Positions 30,084 through 45,120 of a stretch of DNA of 56,226 nucleotides are shown here, one piece after another. Source of the stretch: Phycisphaeraceae bacterium (lineage in GTDB: Bacteria; Planctomycetota; Phycisphaerae; Phycisphaerales; Phycisphaeraceae); contig JAFIFY010000016.1 of the NCBI GenBank assembly GCA_020831765.1, forward strand, positions 1-56,226, read 5' to 3'. The first letter of the stretch is position 1. Each line of letters begins with the position of its first letter. The position numbers and the translations under genes are program-made. Below the pieces are notes generated by a model. That model was not told where the DNA came from. It saw only the letters and a list, made by a program, of their open reading frames with translations, and did no database searches.

Positions 30084-31415
30084 ATGTTAGGACTTGCACT
30101 GAATGACTGGCTGTTGATCGGGTCGCTGGCGCCGTTGCTCGCGGCCAGTGGTTTTTTCTCCGGGACCGAGACGGCGCTGTTCAGTCTTTCGGCGGAGGAG
30201 AAGCGTGATCTGGCCGGGGAGGCGGGGTATGTCGGCCGCGCGGTGACCCGGATGCTCGGCGATCGGCGGGCGCTGCTGCTGACGATCCTGATCGGCAATA
30301 TGACCATCAATGTGCTCTTCTTCGTGGTCAGCACGGTCATCCTGATCCGCCTGGGCGAGGAGTATGAGCTTTCGGCCTGGTGGCTGACACCGCTGAGCGT
30401 GCTGCCATTGCTGGCCATTGTGATGTTCGGCGAGGTTCTGCCCAAGCTGCTGGCGTCGCGGAACACCCTGGTTTTCACGCGCTTCATCGCCCTGCCGTTC
30501 ACGGTGGTCTATCGCGGCCTGACACCGCTGCGGATCGTGCTCAACGCGGTGGTGGTGACACCGCTGGCCCGGCTGATCGAACCGGGTCGCCGGCCCGAGG
30601 TCTTCTCCGCCGCGGAGCTCGAGACGCTGCTGAAAATCAGCAAACAGGAAGGGATCATCGATCCGGATGAAGAAGGCATGATGCAGGCGATCATCGACAT
30701 GTCGCAGCTCCGGGTGCGGCACATCATGACGCCGCGCGTCGATATCCGGGGTTACGACCTGGATCATCCCGTCGAAGAACTCTACGAGCTGATCCGCCAC
30801 ACGCGCCTCAGCCGTCTGCCGGTCTATCGCGGCGATCTTGACCACATCCAGGGCATGGTGCTCTCACGCGATGTGCTGCTGGCTGAACCGACTGATGCGC
30901 CGGCCGTCGAATCACTGGTCTTCGACATCCAGTTCGTGCCGCAGTTGGTTCGGCTCAACCAGTTGCCGGAGGTTTTCGCCGAGGCGAGGCAGCCGATGGT
31001 GATCGCGGTGGATGAGTACGGCGGGACCGCCGGGCTGGTGACGCTTGAAGACCTGATGGAGCACATGGTCGGCGAGATCGCCGGTCCGTACGATTCAATC
31101 GCCAACACATCCATCGAGCGGATCGGGGCTCATGAGTACAGGATCGGTGCCGGCTTTCCCGTCGAGCAATGGGTACACCTGCTGGGCATCGCCCGGGAGG
31201 AACTGGACAATTCTCCCCGAACCCTGGGCGGCTGGATGATGGCCGGACTGGGTCGTCTGCCCAAGGTCGGCGACCGCCTTGAGATTCCAGCGGGCGAATT
31301 GCGGGTCGAGCGGATGCGCGATCGTCGAATCGCCACGATCCTGCTCAAACTCGGGCAAGGTCACGAAGGGTCACTGCGCGTCGCCGATCAGGCCGAACCT
31401 GGGGGTGGACAATGA
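30084..31415 (+). CDS. CNNM/CorC (HlyC) family membrane protein with CBS domains
   Basis: 443 residues. An N-terminal DUF21 (CNNM) membrane domain (about 8-185, with SGFFSGTETALFSLS and FGEVLPKLLA) is followed by a CBS pair (about 205-335: VRHIMTPRVDI, RLPVYRGDLDHIQG) and the C-terminal CorC_HlyC domain (about 345-430: IGAGFPVEQWVHLLG). Relatives are linked to magnesium or cobalt efflux and to resistance. Its stop overlaps the start of the next, paralogous gene by four bases (ATGA), so the two are translationally coupled and may form a heteromer. Confidence 0.92.
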   Translation: MLGLALNDWLLIGSLAPLLAASGFFSGTETALFSLSAEEKRDLAGEAGYVGRAVTRMLGDRRALLLTILIGNMTINVLFFVVSTVILIRLGEEYELSAWWLTPLSVLPLLAIVMFGEVLPKLLASRNTLVFTRFIALPFTVVYRGLTPLRIVLNAVVVTPLARLIEPGRRPEVFSAAELETLLKISKQEGIIDPDEEGMMQAIIDMSQLRVRHIMTPRVDIRGYDLDHPVEELYELIRHTRLSRLPVYRGDLDHIQGMVLSRDVLLAEPTDAPAVESLVFDIQFVPQLVRLNQLPEVFAEARQPMVIAVDEYGGTAGLVTLEDLMEHMVGEIAGPYDSIANTSIERIGAHEYRIGAGFPVEQWVHLLGIAREELDNSPRTLGGWMMAGLGRLPKVGDRLEIPAGELRVERMRDRRIATILLKLGQGHEGSLRVADQAEPGGGQ

Positions 31416-32404
31416 TCGACCCGGTGGTGATGCTCTGGATCGTGTTGATCGCCATCGGTCTGGTGGGCAGTGCGCTGTACAGCGGGCTGGAGACCGGCAG
31501 TTACACCCTCAGCCGAGTTCGATTGCGGCTACTGGAAGCCGAGGGCGACCGGCGGGCGATTCGTCTGCGTCGAATGATCGAGAATCCAGCCAGGCTTCTG
31601 GCGGTGTTGCTGATCGCCAACAACGTGACCAACTACCTGGGCACGGCGGGTGTGGCGGTGCTTCTAGAGCGAGGCGGTCTGGGTGCGTGGCAGACGGTGG
31701 TGGTCAACGCCCTGATCATGGCGCCGTTGCTGATGATCTTCGGCGAGACCCTGCCCAAGGATCTGTTCTCGACGTACAGCGATCGACTGATGCGCCCGTT
31801 CAGCGGGCTTCTGGAGGCCACTTCGCGGCTGCTGAGCTGGGTCGGCGTGGTGCCGCTGGTCATGGCGCTGAGCGCTGGATTCGCCCGGATGGTGGGTGTG
31901 CCGCCGGAGCGTTCGGGCATGACGCCGCGCCGGCACATGCTGCTGTTGATGCAGGAAGGCCTGGGCGCGGGGGTGCTTCGCGATGAGCAGACGCGTCTAC
32001 TCCGCCGCGCCATGAATCTGGGCGCTCAGAAGGTGGGTCAGCACGCGGTGACCTGGGACCGAGTCGCCAAACTTCGCATCACCGACAAGGTGGCCGATGC
32101 CCAGCGGCTCTGCCGCGAGACCGGTCACTCGCGGTTTCCGCTGCTGGATGAACAGGGACAAGTGCTGGGCGTGGTCAACGTGTTTGAAACGCTTCTGGCC
32201 GCCAGCCAGCCCAGCCCGCCCCTGGTGTTCTTTTCCCGCGAATGTGAGCGGTTCGATGCCCGCCTGCCCCTGCGCAACGCGCTTCGGCGATTGCAGCGAA
32301 GCCCGGTCCACATGGCGATTGTCACGAACGATGACCGGCCGGTGGGGGTGGTCACGATGAAGGATCTGCTGGAGACCCTGGCCGGAGAGATACACGAATG
32401 GTGA
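31412..32404 (+). CDS. second CNNM-type membrane protein, short form
   Basis: 330 residues. A DUF21 membrane domain (LVGSALYSGLETGSYTLS, IFGETLPKDLF) is followed by a single divergent CBS region (ALLDEQGQVLGVVNVFE and VGVVTMKDLLETLAGE). Unlike its upstream partner it lacks the C-terminal CorC_HlyC domain. It starts at 31412 in a four-base overlap with that gene, behind a GGGGGTGG ribosome site. The arrangement of a full and a short paralogue in tandem suggests a two-subunit transporter or regulator. Confidence 0.9.
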   Translation: MIDPVVMLWIVLIAIGLVGSALYSGLETGSYTLSRVRLRLLEAEGDRRAIRLRRMIENPARLLAVLLIANNVTNYLGTAGVAVLLERGGLGAWQTVVVNALIMAPLLMIFGETLPKDLFSTYSDRLMRPFSGLLEATSRLLSWVGVVPLVMALSAGFARMVGVPPERSGMTPRRHMLLLMQEGLGAGVLRDEQTRLLRRAMNLGAQKVGQHAVTWDRVAKLRITDKVADAQRLCRETGHSRFPLLDEQGQVLGVVNVFETLLAASQPSPPLVFFSRECERFDARLPLRNALRRLQRSPVHMAIVTNDDRPVGVVTMKDLLETLAGEIHEW

Positions 32405-32456: not shown

Positions 32457-33107
32457 ATGCTGACATGGTCCACAGCGGAGTTGGCCGATCATGTCGCCGA
32501 CCGGTTGCGCTGCCGCGCGGCCGATGATGATCTGGAACAGGCGGTTTACGGGTTCGATGCCCTTGATGAGCTGGGACTGCATCCTCTGGTTCACGAGGCG
32601 TTCCGGGAAGGCGGTTACGGCGTCTGGCCCGAGATGCGTTATCCAGACGACAGCGGGCGAAGCAGACGATCCGAGGGCAAGCGGTGTGATGTGGTCTTGA
32701 CGCCGGCACCCGAAGCGCTTCCGCTGCGCCAGCCCGGGGTCAAGGGCACGCTCTTTGATTCAGTGCCGGCATGCGATCCGGAAGTGGCGTATTGGCTGGA
32801 GATCAAGAGCGTCGCGCAGTTTGAGACCAGCGGTCCGTTTCGTCGTTACAGCGCTGAGTTGTTCTCCGCCGTGACCCGCGATCTCAAGAAAATCTGGCTC
32901 GACAGCACGATCATGCACGGCGGCCTGCTGCTGATTCTGTTTACATCATCGGAAACGATCGCAGCACACGACCTCGTGGCGTGGCACCACCGGTGTCTGG
33001 ACAAGGCACTCCCCGTGGGCCCGCCCTCGGCACGGGGCTTTCCATTGACCGACCGGATCGGCAACGCCTGGTGCCAGGTGGCGGTCTTCGGCGTTCGGGG
33101 GCTGTAG
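32457..33107 (+). CDS. unknown protein with PD-(D/E)XK nuclease-like motif
   Basis: 216 residues, no signal peptide or membrane segment. Family not recognised. It carries a possible PD-(D/E)XK core: E59 (WPEMRY), D78 in KRCDVVLTP, and E115-x-K117 in YWLEIKSV, all in beta-strand-like contexts and in the usual order. This would fit a metal-dependent nuclease or a nuclease-derived fold, but motif spotting by eye is weak evidence. An alternative GTG start at 32436 adds seven residues. It follows the CNNM pair on the same strand and may be cotranscribed with it. Confidence 0.6.
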   Translation: MLTWSTAELADHVADRLRCRAADDDLEQAVYGFDALDELGLHPLVHEAFREGGYGVWPEMRYPDDSGRSRRSEGKRCDVVLTPAPEALPLRQPGVKGTLFDSVPACDPEVAYWLEIKSVAQFETSGPFRRYSAELFSAVTRDLKKIWLDSTIMHGGLLLILFTSSETIAAHDLVAWHHRCLDKALPVGPPSARGFPLTDRIGNAWCQVAVFGVRGL

Positions 33108-33253
33108 GTGGGTTCGAAGCGGGCTTGGCTTGGTCGCCAGGGTTGCCTGGACTTTGGGCAGCATTTGCGATCGTGTTCAGTCCGTAGTCGCGCAGATGGC
33201 CATAATACGAAGCAATCGGGGCGAAAATCGGTTCTTTTAAGGAAAATTCTCGC

Positions 33254-33269
33254 TGGCACGACTCTTGCA
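33254..33269 (+). promoter_or_regulatory. candidate sigma-54 (-24/-12) promoter
   Basis: The sequence reads CTGGCACG-ACTC-TTGCA. It matches the RpoN consensus YTGGCACG-N4-TTGCW with the GG and GC dinucleotides at the correct spacing. It lies in intergenic DNA with an AT-rich stretch upstream and a structured, terminator-ended region downstream. Transcription would begin near 33280. This is a motif match only; no start-site data are available. Confidence 0.55.
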
Positions 33270-33279
33270 ACTTCCCAGG

Positions 33280-33440
33280 TGTGATGCGAAGTTCGGTCCG
33301 GGACGGACCCACCACCACTGAAAATTCGCTAACAGTCTTCCTCCTCTTCTTTCTCCGAGTCGGTGGAGTTGCAGCACTCCACCGGCGAATGGGAACTTGG
33401 AACCAGGCTCTCGGGCTCGTTGCCCGGGAGTCTATTTTTT
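33280..33440 (+). ncRNA. candidate small RNA with sigma-54 promoter and intrinsic terminator
   Basis: A stretch of about 160 bases begins 12 bases after the -12 element and ends in a U-tract. It has a perfect six-pair hairpin at 33295-33309 (GGTCCG/CGGACC). An unpaired CU-rich tract follows at 33337-33356, containing CTTCCTCCTCTTC, which can pair with Shine-Dalgarno sequences. A perfect nine-pair hairpin lies at 33361-33384 (CGGTGGAGT/ACTCCACCG), and a terminator hairpin at 33408-33430. An open frame across it runs through the terminators and looks incidental. Function is not known; a regulator acting on mRNA ribosome sites is an inference. It faces a PEP-CTERM gene. Confidence 0.5.
33408..33440 (+). 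terminator. intrinsic terminator of the candidate small RNA
   Basis: A nine-pair stem (CTCTCGGGC at 33408-33416 with GCCCGGGAG at 33422-33430, one G-U pair) has a five-base loop. It is followed on the plus strand by TCTATTTTTT. No protein gene on the plus strand ends nearby (the previous stop is 300 bases upstream), so it marks the end of some other transcript. Confidence 0.7.
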
Positions 33441-33473
33441 GGCAATGGCCGGGTCGGCGTTTCGGATCCCATC

Positions 33474-33505
33474 AAAAAAAAGAACCCGCCGTGATCGGCG
33501 GGTTC
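33474..33505 (-). terminator. intrinsic terminator after the PEP-CTERM gene
   Basis: A perfect nine-pair stem (GAACCCGCC at 33482-33490 with GGCGGGTTC at 33497-33505) is followed on the minus strand by eight T (complement of 33474-33481). It lies 26 bases beyond the stop of the PEP-CTERM gene at 33532. Confidence 0.88.
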
Positions 33506-33531
33506 CGGTTGTGATTGATTGAAGATAAACG

Positions 33532-34242
33532 TCAGATGCGTCGGCGGCGGGTACCGGCCAGGATCACGCCACCGAGCCCGAGCAGGGCAAGGCCGGCGGA
33601 AACCGGCTCGGGGACGGCGACCGGGTCATCGTCCTGAGGTGGCGGGGTGACCGGGTCCTGGTCATCATCGGATGGTGTGAACGGCGGCAGGTAGATTTCG
33701 ATGGCGCGGTTCTCCACGGCGGCGGTCTGGTCTTCGCCATCGGCGAACGTCTGGGAGTGGATGTTGAGGTTGCCGTAGAAGCCAGCCTCCAGGGAAACCA
33801 CCGCTTCCCAACCATAGGCGATGTCGTAGATTCCGTAGGTCGAAGGGTCGATCCAGGCGAAGCCGGTCGCCGCATCGGCATCGATGAGCTTATTGGAGTG
33901 GCCCAGCTTGATGAAGGTGTCATCGTGACCGACGCCGCCGCCTTCTCGGATGAAAAACTGGCCGGGATTGGGCAGAACCAAGGCATAGAGAAGCTCGTTC
34001 TCCGCATCCCAGCGAAGGTGTACACTGCCCTCAACGGGGTGGGTGGACTTACCCGCCCGGTACAGCGGAGCGAAAAAATCCTCAGCCAGATCCCATTCGT
34101 TGGCGACGCCATCGACAATGGCCGTTCCCAACGACGGGGTGATCAGCGGATAAGGATTGGCATTGGCTGTATTGGGAGCAGTCAGGCCGCCCCAAACCAG
34201 GGCACCAACAACCGCCGCACTTCCGATCATCTTCCTGCGCAT
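33532..34242 (-). CDS. secreted PEP-CTERM protein
   Basis: 236 residues. A signal peptide (1-29, hydrophobic core after MRRKMIGS, ending NTANA) leads a globular region of unknown fold (IVDGVANEWDLAEDFF and on; it may be a carbohydrate-binding or DOMON-like beta-sandwich). An acidic Pro-rich linker follows (about 185-205). The C-terminus is a canonical PEP-CTERM signal: VPEPVSAGLALLGLGG, a hydrophobic helix and RRRR. Such proteins are sorted by an exosortase, which is not in this window. The ATG at 34242 is eight bases after GGAG. It faces the candidate small RNA gene. Confidence 0.88.
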   Translation of the reverse strand: MRRKMIGSAAVVGALVWGGLTAPNTANANPYPLITPSLGTAIVDGVANEWDLAEDFFAPLYRAGKSTHPVEGSVHLRWDAENELLYALVLPNPGQFFIREGGGVGHDDTFIKLGHSNKLIDADAATGFAWIDPSTYGIYDIAYGWEAVVSLEAGFYGNLNIHSQTFADGEDQTAAVENRAIEIYLPPFTPSDDDQDPVTPPPQDDDPVAVPEPVSAGLALLGLGGVILAGTRRRRI

Positions 34243-42360: not shown

Positions 42361-43077
42361 TTATGGCTCCCTGCGGCGGGCCATCATCAGCATGGCGCCG
42401 ACGCCGAAAAGCGCCAGGGATGCCGGCTCGGGCACGGCGAGAATGACCACGTTGTCGATCAGGGCCCGCGCGCCGGTGTTGCTCGCCGCGCCGGTGGCGC
42501 CGCTGAAGGTCAGGCGAATGAAGGCCGTCTCGACGCCGTCGAGCGCCGCACCGGTGTCCACCACAACCTGCTGATACGAGCCGGTGGGCAGCGACTGCGG
42601 CAGGCCGAGGTCGATGAACGTGATGCCATCGGTCGAGTAGGAAGGCTGGAAAGTGGTCACACCACCCGGGAAAGACTGCGCGGCGAAGGTCAGGAAGACA
42701 TCAAAAAGCCCCGAGGCGTCGAACGCGGCGGTCATGATCGCATTGTTCCAGCGCTCGCCGCGCTGAAGCCGGGCGTTATTGCCGCCTGGCACGCCATCCA
42801 GGGCGTTGACCGTGGTTCCAGCGGTTTCGACCTGAAAATTCGTGCCGCTATTTCCCGAATCAAAGACCAGCGTCGCCGGGAAATCGCCCGCTTTGCGCAA
42901 ACCATCATCGGCTAGAAACGTATCGCCCTGGCCGGAGCTGGTGTAAGGCTCGGCATCGTTGAAGTGCCAGGCGCCGACCGTGACCATGGGATCGATGGTC
43001 GCCCCTTGAACGCTTGCGCCCAGACCAACCATGGTGGTGAAAACGCCGGCAACGATCAATCGATAAGAAAGTTTCAT
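42361..43077 (-). CDS. secreted PEP-CTERM protein, beta-sandwich type
   Basis: 238 residues. A signal peptide (1-25, ending VQG-AT) is followed by a beta-rich region resembling planctomycete PEP-CTERM proteins with a discoidin-like layout (FDASGLFDVFLTFAAQ, FIRLTFSGATGAASNT). It ends with the sorting signal VPEPASLALFGVGAM and RRRE. GGAAAGAG precedes the ATG. It is divergent from thyA across 304 bases. Export and exosortase sorting are expected; the ligand is unknown. Confidence 0.88.
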   Translation of the reverse strand: MKLSYRLIVAGVFTTMVGLGASVQGATIDPMVTVGAWHFNDAEPYTSSGQGDTFLADDGLRKAGDFPATLVFDSGNSGTNFQVETAGTTVNALDGVPGGNNARLQRGERWNNAIMTAAFDASGLFDVFLTFAAQSFPGGVTTFQPSYSTDGITFIDLGLPQSLPTGSYQQVVVDTGAALDGVETAFIRLTFSGATGAASNTGARALIDNVVILAVPEPASLALFGVGAMLMMARRREP

Positions 43078-44687: not shown

Positions 44688-45120
44688 AAGCGCGGCGTGG
44701 ACCGTAAGCCGAATTCTGTTCCACCCGGCCAGGCGCGTGGCCGTGCCGGATGGGGCGGCCATTTCTCTAGGCCCGACGTTGCCGCCGGGCTCAAGCGGCC
44801 CACCCGCGGACACCGGCCCGTCAGGACCGAGGGTCGGACCGACCCGGACGTTACCGAAGCAACGTCGTGCCCGCTGTTTGGCCTTGCACGCGGTGGGGTT
44901 TGCCGTGCCCGGACTGTCACCAGCCCGGCGGTGCGCTCTTACCGCACCTTTTCACCCTTACCGGACCGGGGCGGACCCCGGCCTTGGGCGGTGTGTTTTC
45001 TGTGGCACTTTCCCTGGCCTTGCGACCGGTGGGCGTTACCCACCACCGTGTCCTGTCGTGTTCGGACTTTCCTCTGGAAATAACGGGACTTCCAGCGGCC
45101 GCCGCATCCACGCCGCGCTT
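44688..45120 (-). ncRNA. rnpB: RNase P RNA, type A
   Basis: Catalytic RNA of RNase P, which trims tRNA 5' ends; about 433 bases. On the minus strand the conserved GAGGAAAGTCC near the 5' end (complement at 45064-45074) and ACAGAATTCGGCTTA near the 3' end are both present. The P1 helix is a perfect 14-pair stem: AAGCGCGGCGTGGA at the 5' end with TCCACGCCGCGCTT at the 3' end. A T-run follows at 44685-44689. A -10 box lies six bases upstream. Confidence 0.95.

Follow-up and report, generated by a model that had tools for sequence, protein, structure and literature searches.

Transcription of the Qrr quorum regulatory RNAs of Vibrio requires sigma-54 and enhancer-binding proteins, as described for Vibrionaceae (PMC10162802), and the small RNA GlmY of enterobacteria is described as having a sigma-54-dependent promoter that is controlled by a two-component activator (PMC6075780, PMC7073468). 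For NfeR1 / alpha-r14 (RF02344), the accessible part of the source describes a CU-rich anti-Shine-Dalgarno seed in unpaired RNA, accompanied by hairpins and a terminator; alpha-r14 has a sigma-70 promoter, and each of its three hairpins carries an identical copy of CCUCCUCCC (PMC10746234). A sigma-54 promoter motif of PEP-CTERM genes was reported in Proteobacteria only, in what is available of a 2006 paper (PMC1569441).

Like the Qrr RNAs, the candidate described here would be a small RNA under sigma-54 control with enhancer-binding proteins, which are predicted in this case, but it has no Rfam match and comes from a genome in which Hfq was not detected. It shares with GlmY a sigma-54-dependent promoter, again a predicted one, whereas GlmY acts as a decoy via RapZ and not through an anti-Shine-Dalgarno tract, and an Rfam match is lacking in the candidate. 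The likeness to alpha-r14 lies in the seed, the hairpins, and the terminator; in contrast to alpha-r14, the candidate has a single tract, located between hairpins, and a sigma-54-type promoter, and it belongs to a different phylum. No Rfam family reached its gathering score at the candidate locus. The best sub-threshold match was alpha-r14 itself, with 15.2 bits (E 0.65) against a gathering cut-off of 58.8, which is chance level. Qrr for its control and NfeR1 for its seed are its closest working analogues, but by these tests, the candidate is a member of neither. The only Rfam family at its gathering score in the window was RNase P, elsewhere (RF00010, bacterial class A, 267 bits, 44689-45115, minus strand).

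The source genome comprises 4.71 Mb in 193 contigs and is 98% complete, and the window, i.e., the whole stretch of 56,226 nucleotides that was analysed, is its contig C31. The features of the locus and of its surroundings are as follows:

32457..33107, plus strand, upstream neighbour, a conserved protein with no assigned function, which could in principle share the terminator of the candidate RNA
33108-33531, intergenic stretch of 424 nt, between the stop of the plus-strand gene (33107) and that of the convergent minus-strand gene (33532)
33254-33440, plus strand, candidate small RNA locus, between the two genes
33254..33269, plus strand, predicted sigma-54 promoter -24/-12 element TGGCACGACTCTTGCA (TGGCACG-ACTC-TTGCA), 12/12 consensus match
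33279..33281, plus strand, inferred start of transcription at G33279 or at G33281, some 12 nt downstream of the -12 GC
33286..33329, plus strand, predicted 5' structured domain, GCGAA/TTCGC around hairpin 1
33295-33309, plus strand, hairpin 1, GGTCCG-GGA-CGGACC
33336..33356, plus strand, pyrimidine tract TCTTCCTCCTCTTCTTTCTCC, 21 nt, candidate anti-Shine-Dalgarno seed
33359..33386, plus strand, hairpin 2, 11 pairs including one G-U, loop TGCAGC
33405..33440, plus strand, intrinsic terminator, 12-bp stem (33405-33433) with a 5-nt loop, T-run 33435-33440
33481..33506, minus strand, terminator belonging to the PEP-CTERM-like gene itself, with a T-run and an 11-bp stem, separated by 41 bp from where the candidate RNA ends
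33532..34242, minus strand, convergent neighbour, a PEP-CTERM-like secreted protein with the Shine-Dalgarno sequence GGAGAAAG

The upstream neighbour gave no Pfam match at 0.001 and no NCBIfam match at 0.1. Further upstream lie two tandem genes encoding CNNM/CBS-domain membrane proteins (30084-32404, plus strand). Position 34242, which follows GGAGAAAG, is the probable start of the convergent gene, and not 34302, where a longer open reading frame begins. The initial annotation had presented it as a PEP-CTERM gene. Its product is indeed secreted and ends in a PEP-CTERM-like manner, but the assignment is borderline (TIGR02595 score of 15.2 bits, with the cut-off at 16); no Pfam match was obtained, and the protein is absent from the 91 PF07589 matches of the genome.

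Sigma-54 sites were scored at the 12 informative positions of the consensus TGGCACG-N4-TTGC-A/T, and the transcription start was placed according to the usual spacing of such promoters. The element TGGCACGACTCTTGCA is the top-scoring site of the whole window, with the canonical 10 nt between GG (33255-33256) and GC (33267-33268). No site matching at 12/12 was present in Markov copies, whether in 30 made from the window and read on one strand or in 20000 made from the intergenic stretch of 424 nt. Nevertheless, the promoter by itself proves little, since perfect matches numbered three in the 4.7 Mb of the genome versus two for the reversed control pattern; sites with at most one mismatch (37 versus 40) also showed no excess. 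Many of the 30 sites inspected in this genome were located inside long frames. In the 51 family genomes taken together, there were 106 perfect sites versus 44 for the control, and such a site is therefore probably, though not certainly, real in this family. An inverted-repeat search of 33107-33480 for an activator-binding site returned short candidates only.

The predicted fold of 33278-33440 has an energy of -65.5 kcal/mol (z = -2.9), and two of 200 shuffled sequences folded as well. Hairpin 2 contains nine contiguous perfect pairs, and 8 of the 12 pairs of the terminator stem are G-C. The pyrimidine tract is predicted to be mostly open, with a mean unpaired probability of 0.6, part of it being able to pair within the RNA. 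It was the sole pyrimidine run of at least 21 nt on either strand of 456 kb of the genome, a sample made up of the window and of twenty 20-kb stretches, and of 20000 Markov copies made from the intergenic stretch, 17 contained a run of this length. Terminators with at least 10 pairs were also scarce in this sample (13 on both strands, that of the candidate included). The combination of parts is thus unlikely to have arisen by chance. All the parts listed in the initial annotation, i.e., a near-consensus -24/-12 promoter with correct GG-GC spacing, two hairpins, a CU-rich tract able to pair with Shine-Dalgarno sequences, and an intrinsic terminator with a T-run, were confirmed at, or very near, their annotated positions, the second hairpin containing one G-U pair.

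The search for an RpoN gene and an activator, proposed together with these parts, was also positive. RpoN is encoded in the genome (E 2.5e-60), and so are five activator domains for sigma-54, all with E values of 5e-66 or lower. Another four, weaker activator matches count little, because this broad family also matched in 14 of 14 control genomes. Functional-looking sites with one mismatch each precede a flagellin gene (contig C3) and a flagellar rod-like gene (C16), and another functional-looking site precedes a cysteine synthase-like gene beside one of the activators (C35); the gene names at sigma-54 sites were read off translations, the PEP-CTERM end alone coming from a family search. The two flagellar sites, together with a perfect site in front of a PEP-CTERM amidase, make it plausible that the sigma factor is in use. 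No PF17209 (Hfq) match was found at E ≤ 0.001 in this 98% complete genome. Separately, the third perfect site of the genome (C153:21137-21152, minus strand, L094) lies on the strand opposite to the rpoN frame, whose start it overlaps, and points away from that frame; autoregulation, a divergent RNA, and chance are all possible explanations for its position.

We favour, with somewhat better than even confidence, the interpretation that the locus encodes a lineage-specific, sigma-54-dependent, trans-acting small RNA with an anti-Shine-Dalgarno tract. What can be read from the sequence in its favour is the match to the promoter consensus, the predicted fold, the terminator, the lack of a coding signal, and the presence of RpoN and activators. 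The sigma-54-driven small RNA gene that had been proposed is therefore still the best reading of the parts in a genome with RpoN and five strong activators, but it has lost the support that conservation in relatives would have given. Transcription, its start site, the mode of pairing, and the targets are what we infer from these elements, as follows. RNA polymerase with RpoN would initiate at the -24/-12 promoter once a sigma-54 activator is active, and the intrinsic terminator would end a non-coding RNA of about 160 nt (about 33280-33440, plus strand). The mostly open CU-rich tract would be displayed between two stable hairpins and would probably pair in trans with target mRNAs at their purine-rich Shine-Dalgarno regions, blocking ribosome binding. 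As Hfq was not found, such pairing would work alone or with another chaperone. The mRNA of the adjacent PEP-CTERM-like gene may be one plausible target among many.

The same terminator could also be the ordinary 3' end of the upstream plus-strand gene, which would then carry a 300-nt 3' UTR behind its stop (33107), with the sigma-54 match occurring by chance. Only weak stem-loops, and no better terminator, were found between 33107 and 33405, and the near-equal frequency of perfect sigma-54 matches and of the reversed control in the genome speaks for this explanation. We therefore regard the claim that no protein gene explains the terminator as likely and not as proven, given a plus-strand gene that ends at 33107 with no better terminator of its own. 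The orthologues of this gene, however, show no such arrangement: no terminator of at least 6 pairs was present in the 450 nt behind any of the 35 relative loci inspected (31 distinct). These loci correspond to the 29 of 75 relatives with a match to the upstream gene plus six more, four of which repeat contigs of the former; one of the 35 has 121 nt of downstream sequence and another has none. The terminator is thus probably not a conserved 3' end of the upstream gene, even if the two transcripts may share it. Moreover, it is improbable that chance alone would place a perfect promoter at this spacing from a strong terminator and, between the two, the sole long CU run found in 456 kb. An ordinary 3' end is, in our view, an unlikely explanation, though by no means a negligible one. 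Both could also be true at once, i.e., a small RNA embedded in the 3' UTR, with its own sigma-54 promoter and a terminator in common with the upstream mRNA. The same-strand arrangement and the single strong terminator are in line with this, but no sign of read-through from the upstream gene was seen, and we consider such an arrangement rather improbable.

In CsrB and RsmY, A-N-GGA motifs are repeated in apical loops. A CsrA-sequestering RNA, whose GGA motifs would titrate CsrA in a flagellar sigma-54 circuit, could be envisaged at this locus as well, since the RNA contains six GGA, one of which forms the triloop of hairpin 1, and a csrA-like frame, found by its start motif, lies directly upstream of the flagellin-like gene on contig C3 (L068 / L221), with the one-mismatch sigma-54 site between the two. 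Only one A-N-GGA is present in the candidate, however, and only one GGA is in an apical loop, and we give this explanation very little credit. Still less credible is an mRNA under sigma-54 control that encodes a small hydrophobic protein, as the 77-codon frame that opens at the predicted transcript start (33281-33514, the sole long frame across the locus) has a non-coding codon usage (-0.08 per codon versus 0.16 to 0.27 in three neighbouring genes), reads through both the small RNA terminator and the convergent one, and owes its hydrophobic stretch to the CU tract read as Phe/Leu codons. This frame looks non-coding, and no frame of at least 10 codons (stop included) closes within the transcript.

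Conservation of the promoter and of the hairpin-tract-hairpin-terminator order in relatives, which the initial annotation had put forward as a check, was not observed: no homologue was found in 100 genomes. A blastn search with 33240-33440 revealed no second copy in the genome itself (E up to 10), the nine further matches being 15-32 nt long, and no homologue in the 100 relatives (E up to 0.1), where 10 genomes had one match each, of 18-28 nt. These short matches were scattered across the query. A covariance model, built from the single sequence (two identical rows) and searched with stricter filters, also yielded no homologue in the 100 relatives. Its three matches at E ≤ 0.5 (2.5e-4, 0.01, and 0.175) cover the terminator stem, and in one case also the preceding stretch; they were rejected as homologues, and neither a sigma-54 site above 8/12 nor a 12-nt pyrimidine run was found near them. 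Likewise, neither a pyrimidine run of 14 nt nor a sigma-54 site scoring above 10/12 was found within up to 900 nt behind the upstream-gene orthologue at the 35 loci described above. None of the 50 other family genomes compared is of the same genus, and the genomes of the two relatives whose neighbouring protein is closest have a completeness of 66 and 71%; the absence of a homologue is therefore weak evidence and does not refute the candidate. Two other loci were rejected on inspection. What follows the extended promoter shared by the best-looking blastn match (G003, L012) is a long reading frame, with no tract or terminator seen there, and a long reading frame also lies behind an identical 16-mer promoter in another genome (G040, L307).

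We also surveyed the family for analogous loci, using 92 of its 106 perfect sites (13 sites in G005 and G034 and the L012 site in G003 were left out). Terminators of at least 10 pairs were found within 320 nt of three perfect sites, that of the candidate included, versus one, one, and zero in the three control orientations, and those of at least 8 pairs within 320 nt of four sites versus five, two, and two. There is thus no convincing excess of perfect sites paired with a downstream terminator across the family. The neatest analogue, L277 (G006:C128:63474-63489, minus strand), belongs to another genus and has the same plan, with hairpins and a 14-bp terminator in the roughly 110 nt after a perfect site, and it is overlapped by frames of up to 95 codons. 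It has no significant similarity to the candidate RNA (319 of 1000 shuffles scored as high), and a blastn search with it returned no homologues, only short matches in 16 other genomes (E 0.015 to 0.1).

With regard to possible targets, the 8 nt CUUUCUCC of the tract (33349-33356) are complementary to the Shine-Dalgarno sequence GGAGAAAG of the convergent neighbour. By predicted duplex energy (-22.8 kcal/mol), this gene ranks 7th of 304 genes, and its Shine-Dalgarno pairing ranks 4th of 230 against intergenic starts; the 304 genes are home-made calls in the 456 kb, which are too few and have uncertain start sites. A wider comparison involved the 72 usable leaders among 75 PEP-CTERM genes and 230 background genes. 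After correction for Shine-Dalgarno strength, the tract favoured PEP-CTERM leaders (t -4.2), and among 200 shuffled tracts, one reached the size of this effect and two reached the t value. PEP-CTERM leaders have stronger Shine-Dalgarno sequences than the background and a higher purine content (0.595 versus 0.541), and when only genes with ATG starts and strong Shine-Dalgarno sequences were retained (53 versus 111), the preference dropped to t -1.9. Among 240 natural pyrimidine-rich windows (from 264), two matched this restricted effect by size and five by t, a comparison that carries no weight because the windows may differ in base composition. The preference of the tract for PEP-CTERM leaders as a class is therefore weak and not robust, and it may reflect base composition. 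As regards the suggested regulator of surface-protein mRNAs, pairing is thus predicted with the neighbour's Shine-Dalgarno sequence, but the preference for the class as a whole is small.

The locus is one well-formed candidate of a known kind, from one genome. In the open-access literature, as far as its accessible parts extend, we found no report of a sigma-54-dependent small RNA in Planctomycetota, which is weak evidence of absence; a review table, in an extract that does not include its heading, gives 8 for the PVC group versus 345 for Proteobacteria. If confirmed, the candidate would represent a wiring of sigma-54 to a small RNA in a genome with no detectable Hfq, and would offer a handle on surface-protein regulation in a genome with some 76 PEP-CTERM genes. 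It is conceivable, as a long shot, that an Hfq-independent, anti-Shine-Dalgarno small RNA under sigma-54 control represses the translation of a large set of PEP-CTERM surface proteins with purine-rich leaders in Planctomycetota. If so, much of the PEP-CTERM repertoire of this genome would be under indirect control of RpoN, via RNA, and not through promoters as in Proteobacteria.

The tie between PEP-CTERM genes and RpoN, by which the adjacent gene had been linked to the candidate, turned out to be mostly a coincidence of abundance. The genome contains 91 PF07589 matches at E ≤ 1, of which 76 are above the cut-off, so that adjacency to a PEP-CTERM gene is uninformative; within the 56-kb window, one match (42370-42438) was found besides the borderline neighbour. 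No minus-strand sigma-54 site of at least 10/12 lies in front of this neighbour. We scanned the upstream regions of 75 PEP-CTERM genes, leaving aside the 15 matches below the cut-off and one fragment at a contig end, and found a site above 10/12 in one region and a 10/12 site in five. The PEP-CTERM genes are thus not broadly preceded by -24/-12 sites (1/75 perfect), unlike those of the proteobacterial PEP-CTERM / PrsK-PrsR / RpoN regulon as described in the available extracts (PMC1569441, PMC9850573), which the genome resembles in having a perfect site before one PEP-CTERM gene. This site (C156:11427-11442, minus strand; L095, C156:8500-12583) is located about 125 nt upstream of a gene encoding a secreted amidase-like protein and, judged from its sequence, is possibly a direct case of sigma-54 control of a PEP-CTERM gene outside Proteobacteria.
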